The notes beneath the pieces are model-generated. The model did not search any database, had not been told where the DNA came from, and saw only the letters and a list, made by a program, of their open reading frames with translations. A stretch of 64,000 nucleotides of DNA from Heterostelium multicystogenum (lineage: Eukaryota > Evosea > Eumycetozoa > Acytosteliales > Acytosteliaceae): positions 1 to 64,000 of the forward strand of contig RCNN01000010.1 in assembly GCA_003667245.1 (NCBI GenBank), read 5' to 3'. The translations under genes and the position numbers were made by a program. This document shows, piece after piece, positions 2,894-52,995 of the stretch; positions within the stretch are counted from its first letter, which is position 1, and every line of letters starts with the position of its first letter.

Positions 2894-3317
2894 ACATCTA
2901 AAGTAATCAATCCACTATTTTTTTAAAATACCTCAAACTCAATCAAAGATATCCTATCTTGTTGATTCAATGACTATTCATTCCATTCTACAATTCAACT
3001 GTTAGTTCAGTTTACTGATGTCAACTTGCACAAATGAAAGAAATCCCAAAAGCCGCTATCCAAAAAAAAATATTTAGAAATATCTGACCAAAGCAAAATC
3101 CCGACTGTAATCGGACTTTTTTATGTATAGGATGTAGGGCGAATCCGCGAATGATTTATTTTTAAAATGTAATGTTCCTTTTTTTCTATTTTTTTTTTGA
3201 TCGTTGATTCCATGAGGACTATCATGAAAGTTTAAATAAATAATATGTGGGATAAGGTATTCGTGTACGCTAAAATTGTTGAATATGATTGATGGTTTGA
3301 TTTGTTTTGTGTTTGAT
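2894..3317. other. Intergenic between two converging genes
   Basis: No gene seen. This is the shared 3' region of spermidine synthase and HMG-CoA lyase. It contains A and T tracts and a weak hairpin followed by T (CCGA at 3101-3104, TCGG at 3111-3114, then T-rich), too short to call a functional element. Confidence 0.5.
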
Positions 3318-4443
3318 CTATATACAGGTTCGTTGAGCTTTGTGTGAGAGTGCTAATGATACTTTTGAGCTTGGTGTTTTACCTAGAATGTTGGATATCC
3401 ACAGACTGATGTCCAAGACTTTATCGAGGTTCACTTTACAATCGATTCCTAAATCTTTCATCATCATAGAGGACATCCTCAGTAGCTACATTACCGGATG
3501 CTCCAACTGCGTATGGGCATCCACCGAGACCAGCAACAGAGCTGTCTACTACGTTGATACCAAACTGAAGTGCCGTCAGAATGTTGGCGAGAGCTTGGCC
3601 ATAGGTGTCGTGGAAGTGGACTGCTAAACTGCTGAGTGGGATCTCCTTGGAGACAGCGGAGAGCATCTTGAATGTTGTACCGGGTGTTCCGATTCCAATG
3701 GTATCACCAAGTGAGATTTCGTAGCAACCAAACTCATAGAGCTTGCGTGAAACTTCGGCAACCTTTTCCACAGAGATTCTTCCTTCGTATGGGCAGCCAA
3801 GTACGCATGAAACGTAGCCTCTAATCTTTATATCGTGCTCTTTTGCGGCGTCACAGACATCTTTGTATCGTGCTAAACTTTCTTCGATGGAGGCATTGAT
3901 ATTTTTTTTTGAAAAACTTTCGGAAGCGGCGGCAAAACAAGGCTATTTCTTTTGCACCCGATGCCAATGCCTTATTAAATCCCTGTAGATTTGGGGTCAA
4001 TGTTGGATATGATACTCCTGGAACAGGGACAATTCCTGCCATAAACTTCTTTACAATCTGCCATCTATAATAACATAATCATTCATTAATATGATGATTG
4101 ACGAGTTGAGTATCAGCTTATACATACCTGTGGAACCCATTTTGGTGATACGAATGAGGTTGCCTCTACTACTGATAGGCCTGTGTTTGCTAGCCTGTTG
4201 ATCAAATCGATCTTTACGTTGGTTGGTACTATTTGCTTTTCATTTTGTAAACCGTCTCTTGGACCGACTTCTACAATCTTTACATATTCAGGGAATGGTC
4301 CAAACTGATTGTCACAACAATATTAGCAATGAATAACTGACTTTCATACAATTATACATACGTTTTAATATCTTGTTTTAATGTGATTGGGTTTGTTACA
4401 ACAGTGATGAATGATCTTCTACTACTACTGCTGTTGCTAGCAT
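3318..4443 (-). CDS. hmgcl: Hydroxymethylglutaryl-CoA lyase, mitochondrial
   Basis: Cleaves HMG-CoA to acetoacetate and acetyl-CoA, the last step of leucine breakdown and ketogenesis. Visible motifs in order: [109 protein letters not shown] with the active-site Cys loop, and NVATEDV. The short exon 1 (4362-4443) starts MLAT and reads [11 protein letters not shown], a basic/hydroxylated leader that fits a mitochondrial presequence. Exons 2 and 3 are 4128-4304 and 3318-4064; both introns begin GTATGT. Frame breaks occur in exon 1 (about 4415), twice or more in exon 3 (about 4043 and 3945), and after DVLY near 3472, where one extra base precedes [11 protein letters not shown]. The gene ends KAQRTCI. 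Confidence 0.9.
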
Positions 4444-5694: not shown

Positions 5695-6657
5695 TTAAAC
5701 TGTAACGATGTCAAGCAATAACTTCTTGTAGTCACCGGAGCAATCCTTTTCGATGTCGTGTTGAAGTGATCTTCCAACGGTGGCAGCGTAGGCTCTGGCG
5801 ACATTGGTGATGAATGGTTGGCAGTATACGACGTTTCTGATGAGAGTCTCGTCGTTGGTTCCGACACCAGCCATTGACTTGTGGAGTACTCTGGCAAAGT
5901 AGGCGAATGAGTCTTGGGAAAAGAGGAGGATGGACTTCAAGGCTGATCTGATATCACCAGAGAATTCGCTTTCGATGGCCTTCTCGAGTGAGTGCTTCTT
6001 GTGGATGGTCTCGTAGATTCTGGCAATCTCACGGATTTGAAGGAAGTTACGGTTGGCAAAGATCTTGATGAAGGTCTTCTCGTCGGTTCCGATCTTACCC
6101 TCACCGGCCTTGTAGAGTGCCTCGGCGTCGGTGGCAGCTCTAGCTGGGTCGACAATCCATGACTCATCACGTGGGTCCAAGAGCTCTTCCAACAAGTGCT
6201 TGTAGTCACCGCTGGTCTCGGAGGAGATGGCGTGCTTGAGTGACTTTCCGGTTTGAGTGGCGAAGATTTGGCTGATTCTGGCCTTTTGAGCGTTGTTTCT
6301 GGTGACGAGGATTTCAGTCAAGACAGCCTCGTTGGTTCCGACACCCTTCATGGCCTTGATCAAGGACTCGACGTCAAAGATGGCTGGGTCGGTGAGGAGG
6401 GCAATCAAACCCTTCTCAAAGTTACCAGAGGTCTCAGACTTGATGTCCTTGATCAAATCTCTTCCGACGTGGGTGGTGTACTCTCTGATGATTCCGGCAC
6501 GCTCCTCCCAGTTACGGTTGGCAAGAATGGTGATCAAAGTTTTCTCATCGGTTCCAATTCCCTTCATAGCCTTTCTCAACATCTCAGCGTCCTTCTTGAG
6601 GTCGTGGGCAATTGAGAATGGAGTGTAGCATGCAAATGGTACAGCTGGAGCTTGCAT
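5695..6657 (-). CDS. Annexin, four repeats, short N terminus
   Basis: Calcium-dependent phospholipid-binding protein of cytosol and membranes. The 320-residue frame has four annexin repeats with GxGT calcium loops: KGIGTDEKT (about residue 32), KGVGTNEAV (about 105), GKIGTDEKT (about 190) and AGVGTNDET (about 265). Each is followed roughly 40 residues later by an acidic cap in SETSG, SETSG, SEFSG and KDCSG, so all four type II sites look usable. The N terminus before repeat 1 is only about 25 residues (MQAPAVPFACYTPFS), lacking the long Gly/Pro/Tyr-rich tail of the annexin VII type known in Dictyostelium. No intron and no frame break, unlike most neighbours. ATG at 6657-6655 is the only start that gives a full repeat 1. 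Confidence 0.95.
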   Translation of the reverse strand: MQAPAVPFACYTPFSIAHDLKKDAEMLRKAMKGIGTDEKTLITILANRNWEERAGIIREYTTHVGRDLIKDIKSETSGNFEKGLIALLTDPAIFDVESLIKAMKGVGTNEAVLTEILVTRNNAQKARISQIFATQTGKSLKHAISSETSGDYKHLLEELLDPRDESWIVDPARAATDAEALYKAGEGKIGTDEKTFIKIFANRNFLQIREIARIYETIHKKHSLEKAIESEFSGDIRSALKSILLFSQDSFAYFARVLHKSMAGVGTNDETLIRNVVYCQPFITNVARAYAATVGRSLQHDIEKDCSGDYKKLLLDIVTV

Positions 6658-7835
6658 CTTATAGATATTTTAAATTTATAAGTTTATAAAAAGATAATAG
6701 TAATTGAATTTGGTGAATGATAAATTGATAGAGGATGAGAAAATTAAATGGTTTAAGAGCCTTGGAATCTTTTATTTATATGTGGTGGTTGGACTCCTTT
6801 ATTACAGCAAGCTCCAAGCAAAGAAATCAAAAAATTAATAATAATAATAATTATAAATTAAATTCAAGTAAAATCTTGTGTTGCCTATTTTCATTAATCA
6901 CATTTCAGTTCAGGTCGTGACACACTAGGGATCAACCTTTACAGTTGTTGTTTTTCAATTTTTTCAGGTTTTGCAGACTTTTTTTTTAAACAGGTTGCAC
7001 ATAAATTAAAATCAAATCTATCTAGGTTTGGGTGATGTTTGATGGTTTAGAAGTCCCAGTGTTAAGAATTGATCTTTTTAGCTCGTACTTTATTATTATT
7101 ATTTGACTGTAGAGATGGAGGTCTTCAAGCAGATCCGTTGTTTGATTTTAGTTTCTTTTTGGTAGATGATCTATAGTTGGATCATCAAGTTGCAATCAAA
7201 AAAACAAAGAATTTGCCAAAATTCTTTTAATTTAGTTTCATTTTTATCGATTTTTTTAGCACTAAACCATGCAATTAAACAAAGGGTTGTTTAATTTTTC
7301 AGACATTTTATTTGGATTTCAGAAAAATCAAACAAGGTGGTATGAAAGTTCGAACTTTCATGCTCCATTCTGTTTTATCATCTTGACAAGGTTGTTTCTG
7401 TCTAATGAGTGGTTGTTTATTGAAGTGATTCTGATGATTCAATTTAACCATTATAACAGATATTTAGGTGAATCACTAATATGACGAAGTGTTTCTCCAA
7501 AATACATTACATTCAAATAATTGATGTTACCTTTAAAATAATGATTATTAGTTACTGATAAAGTTATTTTAACTTAAGCCCATACATTGAAAAGGAAAAG
7601 GAAAGGATTATTTCATTTGAAGTATAAAACAATTTAAACAGAATAAATTATTATCTACTATTGGGCATGGTTGATTCTTTTCTTCTTATCTTAATTTGAA
7701 TATTCCATCCAAGCTCATTGAAATACTAAAAACTTCTATTTTTTGAACCAGCACCAAACTGGAAACAAAAAAAAGACGAAACAAAACAGCTGATCACTTT
7801 AAATTCCTTTCAATTACAATCATCAATACAACAAC
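6658..7835. other. Long intergenic region upstream of annexin
   Basis: No gene I can support. Promoter of the annexin is expected near 6660-6720 (AT-rich). Open frames at 6735-6920 and 7269-7484 have hydrophobic, AT-driven composition and no recognisable domain. Confidence 0.5.
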
Positions 7836-8315
7836 ATGGAGAACATGAAAGACACCCTTTTGTTAACTCAATTTAAAAACAACAATTTATCACAAGAGAT
7901 TAAATTATCTATGGTAAGAAATAAAAGTTGAATAGCAATACTAATAATAAAATTGCCCAGTTTGAATTCAATGGTTAAAATTGCACCATTTAAAATGTAA
8001 ATGAATGTGGTTTAAAACGAGACTCCAAGTTGAACAACAAAGTTTTAAAATTTTAATGGGTCACCCTCATACTAAGGTATCCTACAAGATTGGAAAAGAT
8101 TTAGTTTAACATGTAAAATGGGTTACAGTTATCTTGTTAGTTATTAATTAAAATTGTGATTAATAAATTTAATATTATTGAACTAATGTAAAATAGAGCT
8201 AACTCAATTCATTACATTTCATTCTTCAAAACAAGATAAACAAATAAATGAATTGATGTATTATCTTTATCACATAAATAAACATCAACAATATTTATTT
8301 TATCAAATCTCATGA
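7836..8315 (+). CDS. Possible small two- or three-exon gene, unrecognised
   Basis: I do not recognise the product. Exon 1 (7836-7913) reads MENMKDTLLLTQFKNNNLSQ and on to KLSM, then a good GTAAGA donor. An acceptor TAGAG at 8194-8198 opens exon 2 (8199-8315) in phase: LTQFITFHSSKQDKQINELM then YYLYHINKHQQYLFYQIS and a TGA. That TGA sits directly before a GTAAGT donor (8316), and a third open segment (DSLSFQFGQSPHFFRG, about 8380-8434) follows an AG. One missing base could therefore join three exons into a protein of about 80 residues. The composition is Asn/Gln-rich and helical. It lies tail to tail with WDR83. Chance AT-rich sequence is a real alternative. Confidence 0.35.
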
Positions 8316-44486: not shown

Positions 44487-45204
44487 TTATTTGCAGTGGA
44501 TACATTCTCTTCTACCATTCTTGCAATGGATACAATTTGACATCTAAAAGAAGAAATTGGATGTTAGTCAACTATTGGATTGAACATTAAGTTAGTCAGT
44601 GAATCCTTACCAATGATTTTCCAGTTCCGTTACAGAAAGAACAAATCTTGTAACCCATGCTATCACAGAACATGCATTTCTTATGGTGGTGAGTGGCGGC
44701 TGGTGGTGGACAGTGGGAGTGACCTGGAGCTGGTGCGTGGTGTGATGGGAAACCATGTGAGTGACTTGGAGGTGATGCGGCTGATGGTGGACAGTGGGAG
44801 TGACCTGGAGCTGGTGCTGGTGCGTGGTGTGACGGGAATCCATGTGAGTGACTTGGAGGTGATGCAGCTGATGGTGGACAGTGGGAGTGACCTGGAGCTG
44901 GTGCAGCTGGGAATGGGTGTACAACGGCGGCTGGTGGATAAGCATGTTGTGATGGGTAGGCTACGGCAGCTGGAGGTGGTTGTACATGTACAGAGAATCC
45001 AGCAGTTGGTGGGTATGGTTGTGGATGTGAATGAGCTTGTGGTGGCTCAATGAGTCCAGTTCCGTTGTCATATTAGAGATATACTTTTGAGTTACGTGTT
45101 TGGTATCTGAGAAATGCTTCAAATGAGACATTCTCTTCAAGGACTAATCGATCAGGGAGAGTGGGTATCACAATCTTGAAAATTTTTTTCAATGTCAAAA
45201 TCAT
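44487..45204 (-). CDS. CxxC zinc-finger protein with His/Pro tandem repeats
   Basis: The minus strand reads, after YDNGTGLIEPPQAHSHPQPY, a Pro/Ala/His-rich region with three tandem copies of PGHSHCPPSAASPPSHSHGF (the last partial), then a cysteine cluster CMFCDSMGYKICSFCNGTG and, in exon 2 (44487-44543), NCIHCKNGRRECIHCK. The CxxC/CxxCxGxG pattern is like the DnaJ-type zinc ribbon. Exon 1 is 44611-45204 from ATG 45204 (MILTLKKIFKIVIPTLPDRL, VLEENVSFEAFLRYQ). An in-frame TAA at 45073-45075 separates that N-terminal part from the repeat region, so either the start is elsewhere, a small intron is missed, or two compensating errors are present. Function unknown; metal binding by Cys/His is likely. 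Confidence 0.6.
44708..44960 (-). repeat. Tandem repeat, units of 81 and 87 nt
   Basis: On the plus strand GGACAGTGGGAGTGACCTGG recurs at 44708, 44789 and 44876, i.e. spacings of 81 and 87 nt (the longer unit has an extra 6-nt GCTGGT). Units differ by few bases, so the duplication is recent. They encode the His/Pro repeats of the zinc-finger protein. Confidence 0.9.
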
Positions 45205-45232
45205 TTCTTATGAGATAATAATACTTTAAACA

Positions 45233-46694
45233 ATGACAGATAGCTTTCTACCAAAAACAACTCAACTTCAGATTCTAAGTAATATATTAAATGAGCATTT
45301 TCTAATTGACCAATCAGCATTCCGAAACTATTGTATTCAATATATGCACTGTAATGAAGGTGAAAATTTTACTCGAATCTCATCAAAGTTCTTTATGAAT
45401 AGAACCAAGCCGAAAGGAATATTATCATACATACTGGTTTGCAAGAAATGGTTTAGCTATGTGTCAATCAACTATTGTACTCAAGCTGTCATTTATCAAA
45501 ACTATAGAAACCAAATATGGAAACTAGTGGAAGAGCATCATAAATACTCATTGTTTCAAACAAACGAACATCAAGGAGCTCTATCTATTTGACACATATC
45601 TAAATGAAGATATTATAGAAAGCCTCAAAGAGAGTTCACTCCAACTCGAAAGAATCTACCTTGTAACTGCCAACAAAGTAATCATTAAATCAATCATCAA
45701 ACATTTTTCTGATATTCATTTAGAATTAGTGATCAGTCAGGTGTGTGATTTGTCGGAGTTTGATGATATGGACTTTTCTCCATTTAAATATCTCTTTATG
45801 ATGACGGACAACCTCGCTCAAGATGGGAGCTATTATGGTCCAGGATTTGAATTTGATTTCACTCCATTTGCCACACACAAGGTCGACTCACTTCAATTTA
45901 TCTATGACAAAGCTAGATTAGGCGGAGTATATCACCTGTCATACACGAAGCTTTTTGAGATATCAACACTAAAGAATCTTTGGATTTCACTCTTTGACCA
46001 TGTTGATGCCTCGGAACTTATTTATATATGCAATGATCATATCGAATCATTCAATGCAAATGTATTATTTGGAGGATTCAGCTTGGATGCAGATCAGACT
46101 ACAGAGCCTATTTTATGACCTTTCATTTTACTGCTGTAACTTATGTGATCGATTCAGTGAGTTTATCTTGCCAGTGCTCTCCACACATCGCATGCAACAC
46201 TGGATAAACTTTTGCTCAGTCTTGGCTCACAATAAAACACTGAAGCATTTATCATTGTACGACTATTGTCAAGGAAATCAACTTAAACCACAAGATGTTG
46301 GACAGCTATCGTATCATCTAAGCAATGCTCTCCTCTCCAACAACACATTGACATCTCTTGAGATAACATGTTTCATATTGGATTCATCATTTTATTAATG
46401 CAATAGCTCAGACATTTTATATACGCGATTTTACGTCTTTTAAATTTGGATTCCAACCATCTAGAACAACTCGGAAACTCACTCAAGTTGAATAGCTCTA
46501 TAAAGAAATTAAACATTACAGCATTGTTTGACAGCACGGTAAGCGCAAAAGCTAAAAACCAATTAGTGATCTTCAACGATGCGATCAAATTGAACAAAAC
46601 AATATCAACAATCAAACTGTTTCCAACCCATTACAATAGTAACTATATAGAGGAATTTTTGAACAAATTGACTCCAAAACCAACACTTGTATAA
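45233..46694 (+). CDS. F-box/LRR-type protein, frame-broken
   Basis: From ATG 45233 (MTDSFLPKTTQLQILSNILN). An F-box-like start, GILSYILVCKKWFSYVSINY (about residues 65-85), is followed by irregular leucine-rich repeats: SLQLERIYLVTANKVIIKSI, HKVDSLQFIYDKARLGG, LKNLWISLFDHVDASELI, NKTLKHLSLYDYCQGNQL, NNTLTSLEITCF, NSSIKKLNITALFD and NKTISTIKLFP. Large families with this plan exist in dictyostelids; F-box members act as substrate adaptors of SCF ubiquitin ligases, but substrates are unknown. Breaks lie near 45590, 46100, 46398 and 46470, giving about 485 residues if joined. With this many breaks in a multi-copy family type, a pseudogene cannot be excluded. Confidence 0.6.
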
Positions 46695-47411
46695 ATAAAT
46701 ATTAGTATTGGATATTGATTTGATATTATTTTCAATTATGTTCCAAAAGAATCTGATTCTTTGTCAAATCCCAAACATAATAAATATATCTCACCGGTGG
46801 CTTTAGATAGTTATTTAATTATTCAAATCCATTTAATCTTGATATTAAAAATAAAAAGTTCAAAGTTGTGGACTACAGCTAGATACTATCTATTCTCTAC
46901 ATTATTTGCAACCCTTAATATCTTGTCCACACTCTTTTTAAAGATGGGTATGTCTATTTCTCTCCATTGGTAGTGTCAAAAGAATACTTGAAGATTAATA
47001 TGTTCAGAAGATTCTTTTACTATTCTTTTATAAAGATAATTAGTTATCACCTTATAACAGGAGAAATCACAGATTTCTGATTGAAGCCTTTGCATTATCT
47101 ATAGTAGACCCATTGATAGTTTTATTATAATAAATATCTTTATTGAATAACTTTTATAAATATCTACTACTTGTTATTAATTTGTAAAAATCAATGTGCT
47201 GTCGTAGTGCCACAGGAGACTGAGTTGTCTTTCAGGGAATATTTCCACTAAAAATAAAAATGATTCTGATCTTTTTAAATGGGGGCTTTTTTAAATGTCA
47301 AACATTTCATTTTGAAAACTTGACTTATAAATATTCCAACTTAGGATCCTTCCTTCTTTGTACTTTAAATTATTTTATTATTTCAATCAATCAATATACA
47401 TATTTAATAGA
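46695..47411. other. Intergenic with faint coding-like remnant
   Basis: Between 46737 and 47083 short plus-strand stretches look protein-like in shifting frames (FQKNLILCQIPNIINISHRW, NLDIKNKKFKVVDYS, LFKDGYVYFSPLVVSKEYLK). They could be a decayed F-box-type relative of the upstream gene. The rest is AT-rich promoter of the RT-like gene. Confidence 0.3.
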
Positions 47412-50087
47412 ATGAAGACCGCCAATCTTGTCAGTGAAATCACCTCCAGAAAGATGAAGGCTCTCGCCAAAGAGAGACAGATTCTAAAGGATACATACCA
47501 ACAGTTGTCTGTTGTCCTCAATGATGAAAAGCTAACTTTGCCCGAGAAGTTCACCCAATTGTACCAAGGACTAACCAACAGTGGAATGAGCAAATTCCAT
47601 CCCGACATTAAGAACCTTGATCCACTTGTAAAGCTGGCCAAAGAGGGTTGTGTTTCTGACACCCTTCTCACTTCTTGGATTGACAAGTTTGCCAAGGAAG
47701 TCCAGACCGGAAAGTACAAGCAATTGCAAGGTTTCATTTATGGTTCAATCCTCGACGAGTATATTAAGTCCAAAAAGATGAATCCTCGCCAACTCTCGAC
47801 ATGGAGTTTGAATTGATTCCAAAGAGCACCACACCTCCTACCACCGTCAAGGTTGACAATAGCACTCCAAAAGCGACCAACAAGTAAAGAAGAAGAGCCC
47901 CTCAAAACCCTTTTCACTCCTGCCGATCCATCCAAGTACAATCTTGAGTTCTTTGATACATTCTTTGATCAATACCCACCAACTTTGTTAAAATCAACCA
48001 TTTGCCTCAGCTTGTGAGACTATCATCACTGACACAGTTGACCATGATGAAGTTCTCAGAGCCACAGAGTCATTGCTCACAAAGGGAACATTGAGAAATG
48101 ACCTCAGAAACTCATTGATTCAGCTCCAAAAAAATGACATCATCTTGAAGGAATATGCTTCAGAGATTCAATTGATGCTTGGAGAAATTCAAGAATGGAA
48201 TTGGTTGGAGACCGATGATGAAAAGAAATTCTATCCCTCCGTATATGTAAAAGACTACAAAAATGGCAAACAAAGGTAAGTTCCTTAAGGATCAGCATAT
48301 CTTGTTATATTGACTAACTATGGTTCCCTTTATTTTAGAGTACATCTAGACTGTAATCCAATCAATGCTGTTTTTCATTGAAATTATAGGAGTCAGATGG
48401 ACTAATGCAATTAGGTCAAATCTTCATTCTTATTATCAAGGAGTATTTAATTTCAAGCATCTTAAGACCACCTATGAAGACAGGGCAAGAGGATCGATAG
48501 TATATCCAAAGGCAGGAATCAGAACTACTTTGAAAAACATTTCTCTTTGATTGCTCAGGATACATGTCGATTAAACAGTACTAGAAGAGTAAACAGAAAT
48601 GAATATGATGGAGATAATACAGATGAAGTAGATGAAAATAACCTCCATGTTTCATTTGAAGACACCGAGGACAATGAGGTAGTTGAGTCTCGTAATTTCA
48701 TTCTCAACTACTTATCAACTCAGATCAAGCAAGTTCACACTTTGCTTCCAGATAACGAACTTTCTATCCTCCAAACACAGACATTGAGAATTGCTATCCA
48801 TCAATTGTTCACCCCGTTCTTTTTAAAGTGTTAGAGTGCTATGGTTTCAATGCTACCTGGTTGAGTTTCTTCAAAAGATATCTTGAGCCAATAGTCAATC
48901 TTCCAGATGGAACACAGGCTCAAATTGAAAGTGGTGTGTTCTTAAAGCAACAACTCTCTTTGCTCTTCGTTGAGTTACTGTTGGCTATTGTTGACATTTC
49001 TGTGAAGTCTTCTGATTACTCTTTCAATGGACCACATCCAATGGATCTCACCTATGTCCGTGCAGTTGATGACACCTATATGTGGTCTCTTTCCCATGAC
49101 ACTATTCTAAATGCCTGGGAAAAAATAAATCATGTTCTTACTCAAATGGGTCTTAAAGTGAACATGGAAAAATCTAGCGCAACATCCTTAACAAGAAGCT
49201 CCATGGAAACTGGATCGGACTCACCTATAAAGAGACAAAAAATCAATATTGAATTGCCTAAGAATGATATAACCTTTGGCTTCCTCATTCTAAACAAAGA
49301 TACCTGGGAGTGGGATATCAATCAAAAGAAACTCAGTATTCTTGTTGAAAAGCTCTATGACAGAGTCGGCAAGTGCACTTCCATCATTGGTAAATCAAAT
49401 ATTTATAACTCCTACATCAAGTATATTGAACATCAATTCAGCAAGTGTTCAATCCCCCTCGGTACATCACACATCGACAAATGTATCGAAGCCATGAAAT
49501 CAATCAACAACAACTTCATTGAACCAGGACAAACTCAATTCCAGTACTTCGAGAAGGAAATTAAAAAGAGATTCTCAACTGAGCTGGAAAGTATTCCAGA
49601 GTGTTTCTTTGTCTGGCCTTTGACCGCCGGTGGTCTTGGTTTGCATCATTCTGTACTTCAGTACACTGTCTCCAGATGCTCCATGGTTGACATTAACTTT
49701 AACCCAGAGCTTAAGCCACTTGATCCAGAAACTAAACTCTCCAGTAACATTTATTTCAACTCCCTTAAATGGTTGTTAAACAGTGAAGATCAGCACTACC
49801 AAACATTTGAGAAAATATTAGGATCGAATTTCAATATGCCTGAACCAACCAAAACTGAACATCATAAACAAGTGGTCCAAAGATTTACCTCCAGATTCGA
49901 CTATCAAAAACCTTCGGAAACTTATGGATACAGAAGAAGACAATCAAGCATCAATTTGAGTCCATACTGGAGTTGGATTATTGCCACCTACGACTCTCAA
50001 ATGGTGAGCTTGTTTGGTGATTACTCTTTCACCTCAAGCGGAGTCGTCCCAGTAAGCTTAATTTTGGAGATCAAATCAGCCAAGTAA
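47412..50087 (+). CDS. Reverse-transcriptase-like protein (cellular, fungal-type family)
   Basis: From ATG 47412 (MKTANLVSEITSRKMKALAK) a helical N-terminal region leads into an RT-like core. YGFNATWLSFFKRYLEPIVN plus GVFLKQQLSLLFVELLLAIV correspond to the segment around motif B (usually GTPMSH.LS..FGE), YVRAVDDTYMW is motif C with the catalytic Asp pair, MGLKVNMEKS is motif D, and FGFLILNKDTWEWDINQKKL resembles motif E. The C-terminal part has FFVWPLTAGGLGLHHSV. This order matches RT-like proteins I know from fungal genomes, not LINE, LTR, DIRS or telomerase. No motif A Asp is evident, and motif B lacks the usual GxP, so activity is doubtful. One intron at 48278-48338 (GTAAGT). Breaks near 47780, 47885, 48000, 48365, 48525 and 48830. 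About 870 residues. No terminal repeats, endonuclease or gag seen. Confidence 0.65.
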
Positions 50088-50263
50088 GAAACATCAATGA
50101 TTCTCGACATGTCATGTACTCTTAAATTTGTTCATCAAGAATAAATCACAAAAATAAAGATTAGATTTTAGAATTCCAACTCATAATTAGAAATTGTTTC
50201 TGAAACAACTTTGAATTGAAATAAATAAAATGTTTATTGTTACTAATTATTTTCACCATCAAT

Positions 50264-52445
50264 TTACAGACCAAGTGATTTCAAAGTTTCTTCGGAAGTA
50301 TGATTTGGCAATGTTACTTTAAGTAATGGCTCGATTTTCATTGCACGTTGGATAGTTGTTTCTGCATTGTCATTGTAAGACCATGATCTTCTAGCAATAC
50401 CATTGTTTACATCCCATGACAACATCATACGTGCTTTTTCCTCAGAGTCTTGAGATCCATCCAAAACCATACCGAAGCCACCATTGATAGCTTCTCCCCA
50501 ACCAGTACCACCACCATTGTGTAGTGAAATCCAAGTGGCACCACGATGAGCATCACCAACAAAGTTTTGTACGGCCATATCAGCACAGAATTCAGAACCA
50601 TCAATGATATTGGATGTTTCTCTCCATGGGCTGTCGGTACCACTGACGTCGTGGTGATCACGACTGATAACAATTGGTGCAGTAAGTTCTCCACTTGCGA
50701 CGGCCTTGTTAAAGGCAACTGCCAACTCAACTCTACCCAATGCATCAGAGTAAAGAATACGAGCTTGGGAACCTACAACCAACTTGTGTGCGCCTGCTTG
50801 AGTGATCCAGAGATGATTGTCATTAAATTGCTGGTGGACATTGGTTGGGATATTTTCGGATCTCAATTTTTCAATGACCTGTCTTGCAATATCGTCTGTC
50901 TTTTGGAGATCGCTTGGGTTTCCAGAAGTACATACCCAACGGAATGGTCCAAATCCAAGAGAAAAGATATCACCCATAATATCTTGGACATAGGATGGAT
51001 AACGGAACTCCTTTGAATTGGGCTTGTAAATATCAGCTTTTGCACGTGATGCCTCCAATAAGAATGAGTTACCATAGTCCCAGAACTTCATTCCACGTTG
51101 TGAAGAGGGTATTGATGGCATTTGCATGACGAACCAAACTAGATTCTACCAAAGACTTGAATTTAGTTGGATCTTTGACCATCATTGTGTTGGCCTCTTC
51201 GAAACTGATTTCAGCTGGATAGTAACCACCATTATATGGATTGTGAAGTGAGGTTTGATCTGAACCAAGTTCAACAGCGACGTCGGATTGTACCAACTTT
51301 TCCCACAAATCGACGACATTACCGTGATAAGCAATTGACATTGGCTTCTTTTCTTGCTTGGCAACCTTGATTCTCTCAATCAATTGATCAAGATCAGAGT
51401 ATACTTCGAGTACCCATCCTTGGGCATGACGCTTGGTCACAGCATCCTTGTTGACCTCTGCAACAACACCTACTGCACCGCAAATTACAGCGGCCTTAGC
51501 TTGTGCACCACTCATTCCACCAAGACCAGAGGTGACAAAGAGCTTACCACTCAAATCGTCGGTGGACATGTATTTACGACCAGCATTCAAAAGAGTGATT
51601 GTGGTACCATGGACAATACCCTGTGGACCAATGTAGCAGTAGCTACCAGCAGTCATTTGACCGTATTGTGAGACACCAAGAGCGTACATTCTCTCATAAT
51701 CAGCTCTTGATGAATAATTTGGAATAACCATACCATTGGTAATGATAACTCTTGGACTTGATGGTTTGCTTGGGAACAATCCCATTGGATGTCCAGAGTA
51801 CATCGACAATGTTTGATTCTCAGTCATCTCTGAAAGATATTTCATAACCAAATGATATTGTGCCCTAATGATTGTAATGGTAAATAGAACTAATCATACT
51901 TGGTGCATCATTTTGTGATAACTTACCAATTTTGGAAAACAGAAACCGTTACCACCGTAAGTAATCAATTCATGTGGGAATTGTGCAACCTCCTTGTCGA
52001 GATTGTTCATAATCATCAACATGATTGCAGCGGCATGTCTGCATTTAGCTGGGTACTGATCGATTGGATATGCCTTCATTACATAGTTGACTGGTCTGAA
52101 TCTGTACATATAGATATGTCCGTATCTATTGAGTTCATCCAAGAACTCGGGTGCTAATTTTTGATGTAAACTAGATGGGAAATATCTAAGTGCATTCTTG
52201 ATTGCCAACTAGAATAATAACAATCATTGATCAGAGAATGTTAATAAAGTCTACTAAACCAACCTCAACGAGGTAGTTAACTATGATTTTATTGTATTTT
52301 AACATACTTTCTTTTCTTGAGCACTCAAGTTTATTGGACGACCTGGTGCATGAGGCACAGTGGTATCGAATGGAGGAAGCTCAGGTAATGGATCCAAGAC
52401 CAAACCCTTTGTTAATGAATCTAATACATTAGTTGAACCACCCAT
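50264..52445 (-). CDS. uroc1: Urocanate hydratase (urocanase)
   Basis: Converts urocanate to 4-imidazolone-5-propionate in histidine breakdown, using bound NAD+ as electrophile. Exon 1 52308-52445 (MGGSTNVLDSLTKGLVLDPL), exon 2 51927-52208 (LRYFPSSLHQKLAPEFLDEL, FPHELITYGGNGFCFPKL), exon 3 50264-51864 (YSGHPMGLFPSKPSSPRVII, NGMVIPNYSSRADYERMYAL, QMTAGSYCYIGPQGIVHGTT, the NAD-binding TSGLGGMSGAQAKAA, QGWVLEVYSDLDQLIERIKV, GSDQTSLHNPYNGGYYP, FRWVCTSGNPSDL, ISRDHHDVSGTDSPWRET, EFCADMAVQNFVGDAHRGAT with the catalytic-site Cys, SLHNGGGTGWGEAINGGFGM). About 670 residues, the length of eukaryotic urocanase. One base is off at the exon 2/3 junction (51864) and one break lies near 51107. Convergent with the RT-like gene. 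Confidence 0.95.
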
Positions 52446-52995
52446 GATCTATCTATCTATCTTTTAGTGATCTATGAAATATGTGAAAGTGAAGTGATAA
52501 TAACGATAATAATTGCAATACAATAAAAATGAATGAAATTTAGAGTTTCTTAAAAAATAAAATAAAAATTAAAACAAATTAAAAAATTAACATGTTAACA
52601 CTCACGCATGTACAGTGTTTAATTATGTCATGTAAATTTCACTTTGGGAATTGGGAACGAATCGTGCTTCCAATTACCCCGACTTTAAATAAATAATCCG
52701 ATATTTTTTTAACTTTTTTTTTTTATTTTCTTTGGAGCTTGGACAGATGCCAAATATGTACATATAATTTGCAATTGAAATGATAAACAATATTGAATAA
52801 TGTGTGTTATAAATAATAAAATATTAATAATTGATTAATAGAGAATGTGTTGTCGGTGTCGATGTTGTTGTCGATGTTGTGACTGACATAATTTGTTTTG
52901 GCTCAGGTCAGTCAGACTTGGAATCATATTTAATATATGTATCTACAGGCAGTCAATTAATTGCTTTGTTTTGTTTTGTTTTGTTTTTGATTGGT
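52446..52995. other. Intergenic, urocanase promoter side
   Basis: AT-rich, T tract at 52715-52725, TTTTGTTTTGTTTTGTTTTT at 52968-52987. No gene seen. Confidence 0.5.

Follow-up and report, generated by a model that had tools for sequence, protein, structure and literature searches.

A putative member of the rvt family of cellular reverse transcriptases in the genome of the social amoeba Heterostelium multicystogenum

Besides telomerase, rvt genes are among the few host genes derived from reverse transcriptases (RTs). The family was reportedly described by Gladyshev and Arkhipova; its proteins possess an N-terminal coiled-coil part, its eukaryotic genes may contain introns and show purifying selection and conserved synteny, and the published bacterial rvt is carried, we presume, by Herpetosiphon aurantiacus. 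The present analysis concerns an RT-like gene (the RVT-like gene) in a stretch of 64,000 nucleotides, the window, at the beginning of contig RCNN01000010.1 of Heterostelium multicystogenum. According to the literature, no RT group other than RVT occurs in bacteria as well as in eukaryotes, and its motifs 2 and 3 are separated by a large loop, 2a (PMC5718144). Work on Neurospora describes an RVT that is non-essential, is strongly induced upon inhibition of protein synthesis and acts as a terminal transferase in vitro (PMC3520738), and a meeting report links RVT genes to the survival of amino-acid starvation, or of certain antibiotics, in bacteria, fungi and rotifers, describing a non-templated polymerisation in which the catalytic residues are needed (PMC10680173). 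The openly licensed literature searched, which did not include the main rvt papers, yielded no dictyostelid rvt, so newness in print cannot be claimed. A social-amoeba copy would bring the rvt question to organisms with good genetics, a diet of soil bacteria and defined starvation responses.

The RVT-like gene is homologous to its relatives over its length, in three co-linear pieces; its catalytic residues are intact, it is present in a single copy and no mobile-element trappings were found. It is probably a new and functional member of the already known rvt family. The epithet "unstudied", applied to it in a preliminary description of this DNA, holds at most for the Heterostelium gene itself, the family being the published rvt class. 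The gene extends from an ATG at 47412 to position 50087 of the forward strand (Table 1), and its second half, 48756-50087(+), is a single open frame of 443 codons. With the stop-codon frequency of the window, and codons taken as independent, the probability of such a length arising by chance is ~5e-13. As the preliminary description had noticed, VRAVDD, MGLKVNMEKS, FGFLIL and WPLTAGGLGL follow one another in RT order within this open reading frame (ORF); the C-terminal block, given there as WPL-x4-GGLGL, is in fact WPL-x2-GGLGL. The N-terminal half consists of pieces in alternating frames together with one plausible intron (48276-48338). A codon model, for which nine other stretches of the window had served as training set, followed the gene through changing frames (47407-47775, 47776-47884, 47885-47997, 47998-48225, 48605-48831 and 48832-50084) and scored 48226-48604 as non-coding.

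Table 1. Features of the RVT-like gene (positions in the window).
Feature	Position	Strand	Basis
RVT-like gene, ATG to stop; coding pieces in changing frames and one putative intron	47412..50087	+	sequence, tblastn, RT_UG37
N-terminal piece (helical/coiled-coil part), co-linear with the start of bacterial relatives	47412..47816	+	RT_UG37, tblastn
Second N-terminal piece, ending at the putative 5' splice site	47992..48275	+	RT_UG37
Putative intron, GTAAGT...TTTTAG	48276..48338	+	read from the sequence
Pieces between fingers and palm; acid-rich stretch, site of the family's long insertion	48339..48755	+	frames read
443-codon open frame: RT palm, thumb, C-terminal domain	48756..50087	+	RT_UG37, tblastn with P0004, structure model
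RT motif A, TDIENCYPSI; catalytic Asp codon 48780-48782	48777..48806	+	alignment A5
RT motif B, SGVFLKQQLS..., without PQG	48921..49001	+	alignment A5
RT motif C, VRAVDD; DD codons 49068-49073	49047..49097	+	alignment A5
RT motif D, MGLKVNMEKS	49137..49190	+	alignment A5
RT motif E region, FGFLILNKDTWEWDI	49269..49331	+	alignment A5
Thumb stretch with conserved YN and H	49368..49490	+	alignment A5
Family signature, IPECFFVWPLTAGGLGL	49593..49655	+	alignment A5
C-terminal signature, LSPYWSW...VVP	49941..50069	+	alignment A5

A profile built from the ORF together with a bait string in the manner of fungal RT-like proteins retrieved six proteins (P0001 to P0006) among 5694 candidates. Since plain tblastn finds all six, their relation to the RVT-like gene is independent of the bait. 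In the RT half, the E-values, calculated for the 64-kb window, were 4.8e-31 for P0004, 3.9e-26 for P0005, 2.0e-25 for P0006, 2.8e-23 for P0001, 1.4e-20 for P0002 and 7.3e-19 for P0003, and the N-terminus was matched as well by P0005 (E 9.9e-8) and P0006 (E 1.9e-6). P0006 is the Herpetosiphonaceae gene of locus L003 (100% identity); P0001-P0003 are presumed to be fungal from their motifs. In the PADLOC collection the model RT_UG37, listed under DRT, was by far the best for the ORF (E 2.2e-54, followed by RT_UG19 at 8.9e-8 and Drt9 at 3.3e-7) and for 19/19 relatives. Across the genome, at E<=10, this model found the RVT-like gene only, in three co-linear pieces at model positions 370-772 (E 1.6e-53), 9-124 (E 3.5e-12) and 161-232 (E 0.035). 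When the N-terminal pieces were searched in isolation, 47412..47816 gave an E-value of 1.2e-14 and 47992..48275 (positions 165-232) one of 1.3e-4. Only strong RT_UG37 matches count, because at the lax threshold of E<=10 the model also matched in three of 14 control genomes (E. coli, Bacteroides ihuae and Methanosarcina acetivorans). NCBIfam matches were confined to models of group II introns and DRT and fell far short of cut-off; PHROGs had no match for the ORF and one RT family for P0006. Together, these comparisons would place the RVT-like gene among the rvt proteins and apart from other RTs, and the bacterial counterpart of the rvt family appears to be RT_UG37, which is itself a bacterial class defined by sequence.

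Most of the relatives, which are RT-like genes standing by themselves, belong to Chloroflexota. Scanning genome contigs gave 111 pattern matches and, among them, nine loci, distributed over Herpetosiphonaceae, Ktedonobacteria-type and other Chloroflexota, a Parabeggiatoa and a Planctomycetaceae MAG. Each of the nine seed genomes has one gene, in some cases in pieces. The gene was present in 15/400 Chloroflexota genomes, six of the 15 being seeds, and in one of 392 Planctomycetota genomes, itself a seed; the class of genome G006 had it in 7/47, all seven among the Chloroflexota 15. None of the 24 stretches of viral contigs that fit the search pattern was a relative, and plasmids and phages searched with P0006 gave no match.

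Alignment A5, of 20 rows including the window protein, allowed a residue-by-residue comparison. Identity of the window protein was 23-30% to the other rows and about 23-27% to the bacterial rvt proteins (Herpetosiphon and other Chloroflexota), with which it is co-linear over most of its length. The motif A Asp, said to be missing in the preliminary description, is present (TDIENCYPSI), as it is in 19/19 rows with letters at that place, and the DD of motif C occurs in 20/20. Canonical RT motif B contains PQG. This triplet is absent from 20/20 rows, and the Pro alone, kept in 17/20, is missing from the window protein, L007 and P0005; the loss of GxP noted earlier stood, and the motif B change is mostly a family trait. 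Motif C of the window protein reads AVDD, as opposed to the HDD of P0001-P0003 (presumed fungal-like), and belongs to the type R-x-[VI]-DD seen in bacterial rvt. The block WPLTAGGLGL and the C-terminal LSPYW are common to the window protein and the bacterial-type rows. They differ in P0001, which alone among the presumed fungal rows has letters at these places. From the motif 2 hairpin, tentatively placed, to the motif A Asp there are 151 residues in P0006 and 121-162 in 15 other uncut rows, the three cut rows (P0002 with 96, P0004 with 29 and L009 with 0) having been dropped. The corresponding DNA distance in the window is ~143 codons, across a region of broken frame, and the range with which it compares is that of the family rows, not that of canonical RTs. 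At the N-terminus, the part of P0006 that corresponds to RT_UG37 positions 9-124 starts with a predicted helix (3-35, AF2).

The resemblance to Neurospora crassa RVT comprises a single-copy host gene, an RT palm with intact catalytic Asp and a patchy distribution (PMC5718144, PMC10680173, PMC3520738). A long stretch between fingers and palm and an N-terminal helical part are likewise shared. The differences lie in the amoeba host, motif C, a motif B without Pro and C-terminal signatures nearer the bacterial rows. The ORF is predicted to fold as RT palm and thumb, in keeping with what the preliminary description had led one to expect: its AF2 model (m15d9ef38434d) has a pLDDT of 66.3 and a pTM of 0.58, compared with 84.5 and 0.85 for relative P0006, and the best 50 rows listed by Foldseek were all RTs, Prp8 or a viral polymerase. 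The nearest solved folds (Foldseek, VIA-align) are R2/LINE-1 and group II intron RTs. Unlike those, the window gene has no mobile element around it, and identity to them is only 10-20%.

The data support the view that this RT-like protein is the product of an ordinary host gene, present once, and not of a retroelement. Both as protein and as DNA with its flanks (47300-50200), the RVT-like gene was found at one place in the 29.7 Mb assembly, as had been claimed for the single locus and its cellular layout. Between 45000 and 52500 no inverted repeat of a minimum length of 20 was detected, and the direct repeats amounted to one 23-nt AT-rich pair; Pfam showed neither an endonuclease nor an RNase H match in the gene. 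The multiple copies, endonuclease or integrase and terminal repeats of LINE and LTR retroelements are not features of the window gene. Pfam RVT_1 (PF00078) did recognise the ORF (E 3.7e-6), at 27.3 bits just under the cut-off of 29.6; two further sub-cut-off matches, on the piece 48478-48831, were taken as chance. Genome-wide, 63 RVT_1 rows were recorded, namely the RVT-like gene (28 bits, under cut-off) and 62 other stretches. Many of the latter form equal-score groups with long open frames and probably represent several retrotransposon families. With telomerase RT the gene shares a cellular setting and the general palm and thumb fold, but Telomerase_RBD (PF12009) was not found in it by Pfam. 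This domain occurs once in the genome (C63:13562-14005, 60.2 bits), with RVT_1 beside it at 22 bits, below cut-off; C63:12362-14005 is accordingly a candidate telomerase RT of the same genome, in two pieces. A retroelement was rejected on the single copy without repeats beyond the 23-nt pair, and a telomerase RT on the separate candidate on C63. Despite the RVT_1 match and a TERT-like spacing of some motifs on inspection, that the gene is a retrotransposon or telomerase RT is hardly credible.

A more serious question is whether the gene is alive. At least six frame changes separate 47412 from ~48800 when translations are read against relatives, and there is none in the last 1.3 kb. Real mutations in a dying pseudogene, whose second half is still open by chance, would give such a pattern; the long branch of the window protein in the tree and the existence of degraded bacterial copies (split in L009, in pieces with wide internal gaps in L010 and L027) point the same way. 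The 443-codon frame is open, however, with catalytic residues kept, and breaks of this type recur in conserved genes elsewhere in the window. The spermidine synthase gene at 2191-2850 runs through three successive frames in the codon model, its Pfam parts lying in different frames with overlapping ends, and this broken copy is the genome's strongest match, with no strong second copy (24.8 bits on another contig). The urocanase model is split near ~51100 into adjoining pieces in two frames with no room for an intron, and HMG-CoA lyase aligned to solved relatives (E 4e-70) up to residue 160/168, whereupon the frame is lost near 3453 and the continuation is read in another. Because these three genes look broken too, the frame breaks in the RVT-like gene probably stem from indels of the assembly and should not be taken as gene death; we regard a dead copy as unlikely. 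Two caveats apply: the annexin and cullin-like genes of the window are unbroken in the codon model, and the urocanase control is not fully independent of that model, since two urocanase stretches were in its training set.

We postulate that the RVT-like gene belongs to the rvt family, is probably a working host gene with assembly-error frame breaks, and encodes a non-templated polymerase called on under stress, an account we consider rather likely on the whole. By analogy with relatives, N-terminal helices would keep the protein multimeric. Its palm, through the D...DD triad, would extend a primer of RNA, DNA or protein by adding nucleotides without template, in the manner of a terminal transferase, and the activity might be called on when, for instance, translation is blocked or amino acids are scarce. 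Since the triad is intact, the window protein most likely acts like other RVTs. For the same reason a purely structural role is not favoured. The preliminary description had proposed a non-catalytic fold kept for RNA binding or another such purpose, citing the altered motif B, and Prp8, a related non-catalytic RT fold, does appear in the fold searches. The Asp of motif A and both of motif C are present, however, and activity is reported for relatives whose motif B is changed in the same way (PMC3520738, PMC10680173), making this a weak inference and, in our view, quite an improbable one. It is conceivable, if rather unlikely, that a catalytically active rvt serves antiviral or anti-element defence, making nucleic acid that harms or blocks an invader as bacterial defence-associated RTs do. 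The grounds for this are the PADLOC label and a fold resemblance. That label derives from sequence, the known DRT models are far weaker (Drt9 being the example given above), no adjacent gene is common to the diverged bacterial loci among 11 compared, and the published RVT work points to blocked-translation stress (PMC3520738, PMC10680173). On a defence role of RT_UG37, only unrelated papers were among the literature matches listed. A recent transfer from a soil bacterium is suggested by WPLTAGGLGL, LSPYW and VVP, which are closer to the bacterial rows than to P0001, no other row presumed to be eukaryotic having letters in both blocks. It is very improbable nonetheless, given the putative intron, the low identity to any row and a place in the tree outside the 16 bacterial-type rows.

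Several observations weigh against a working rvt gene and are gathered here. Besides the frame changes, they include the GVF of the window protein in motif B in place of the usual GVP, GLP or GIP, and the failure of two of four isolated pieces (within 48339..48755) to match any PADLOC model. A protein-database search with the read-through window protein gave nothing at E<=0.001 among 7420 candidates, nor did a third one with alignment A2 among 7996 scored; the only productive search of the three used the alignment that contains the bait. The identity of the bacterial genes with published rvt proteins is in part presumed. The ORF model is of middling confidence, with whole-chain TM-scores of 0.25-0.44, and the window protein sits on a very long end branch (2.85).

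In the tree of the 20 rows, rooted at its midpoint, P0001-P0003 grouped at 100/100 and the 16 bacterial-type rows at 97/97, with the window protein between; the program warns of long branches meeting and calls this placement unsure. Because it falls outside the bacterial-type group, the window protein is not a recent copy of any sampled bacterial gene. More speculatively, and with less confidence than we give to the rvt assignment, an intact amoebozoan RVT may be a third deep lineage between bacterial UG37 and fungal-type RVTs. A candidate anti-phage class and a eukaryotic stress polymerase might then be one enzyme of soil bacteria, amoebae and fungi, acting template-free when translation fails. 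Through the RT_UG37 match, work on the domesticated RTs of eukaryotes meets work on the candidate defence RTs of bacteria, and findings from either field become testable in the other.

The surroundings of the bacterial genes offered some further observations. In six Herpetosiphon-like loci (L019-L024), rvt is immediately preceded, on the same strand, by hisG, the gene for ATP phosphoribosyltransferase, for example at 431-1453 and 1471-3843 of L022; hisG was identified by model in L019 and L022 and by tblastn in the rest. No hisG adjoins the RVT-like gene in the window. The adjacency fits a link with amino acids, and probably reflects one event, since the six loci are close kin. One ORF family is common to L006, L007 and L008, at varying distances from rvt. 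In L004 the protein just upstream of rvt (6376-7902) has weak TIR-type anti-phage matches, far below cut-offs, that were not seen at the other loci compared. The rvt gene is split or has lost its middle in L009 (1790-4197), L010 (5418-6870), L025 and L027, which suggests repeated decay in bacteria.

As regards the window itself, the preliminary description had placed the gene between normal neighbours. The downstream one is indeed urocanase-like and convergent; for the F-box/LRR gene proposed upstream, the codon model gave no coding signal over 45200-46800. The downstream neighbour happens to be a histidine-breakdown gene. On the side of the host, the best PDB match of one myosin was 1lkx, MYOSIN IE HEAVY CHAIN, a Dictyostelium protein, which is a weak sign of a dictyostelid. 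Two kinds of urocanase exist in the genome: the divergent, frame-broken copy at 50264-52450 adjoining the RVT-like gene, and an unbroken one at C53:28757-30388 (1019 bits on the bacterial-type model), because of which the window copy might be redundant. Over 2191-2850, 3150-3990 and 50264-52450, conserved genes change frame within short distances; many small indels in the assembly are probable, and gene calls in the window therefore need care. Finally, a tandem array with a period of 87, comprising 2.5 copies with 92% matches, is found at 44696-44909.
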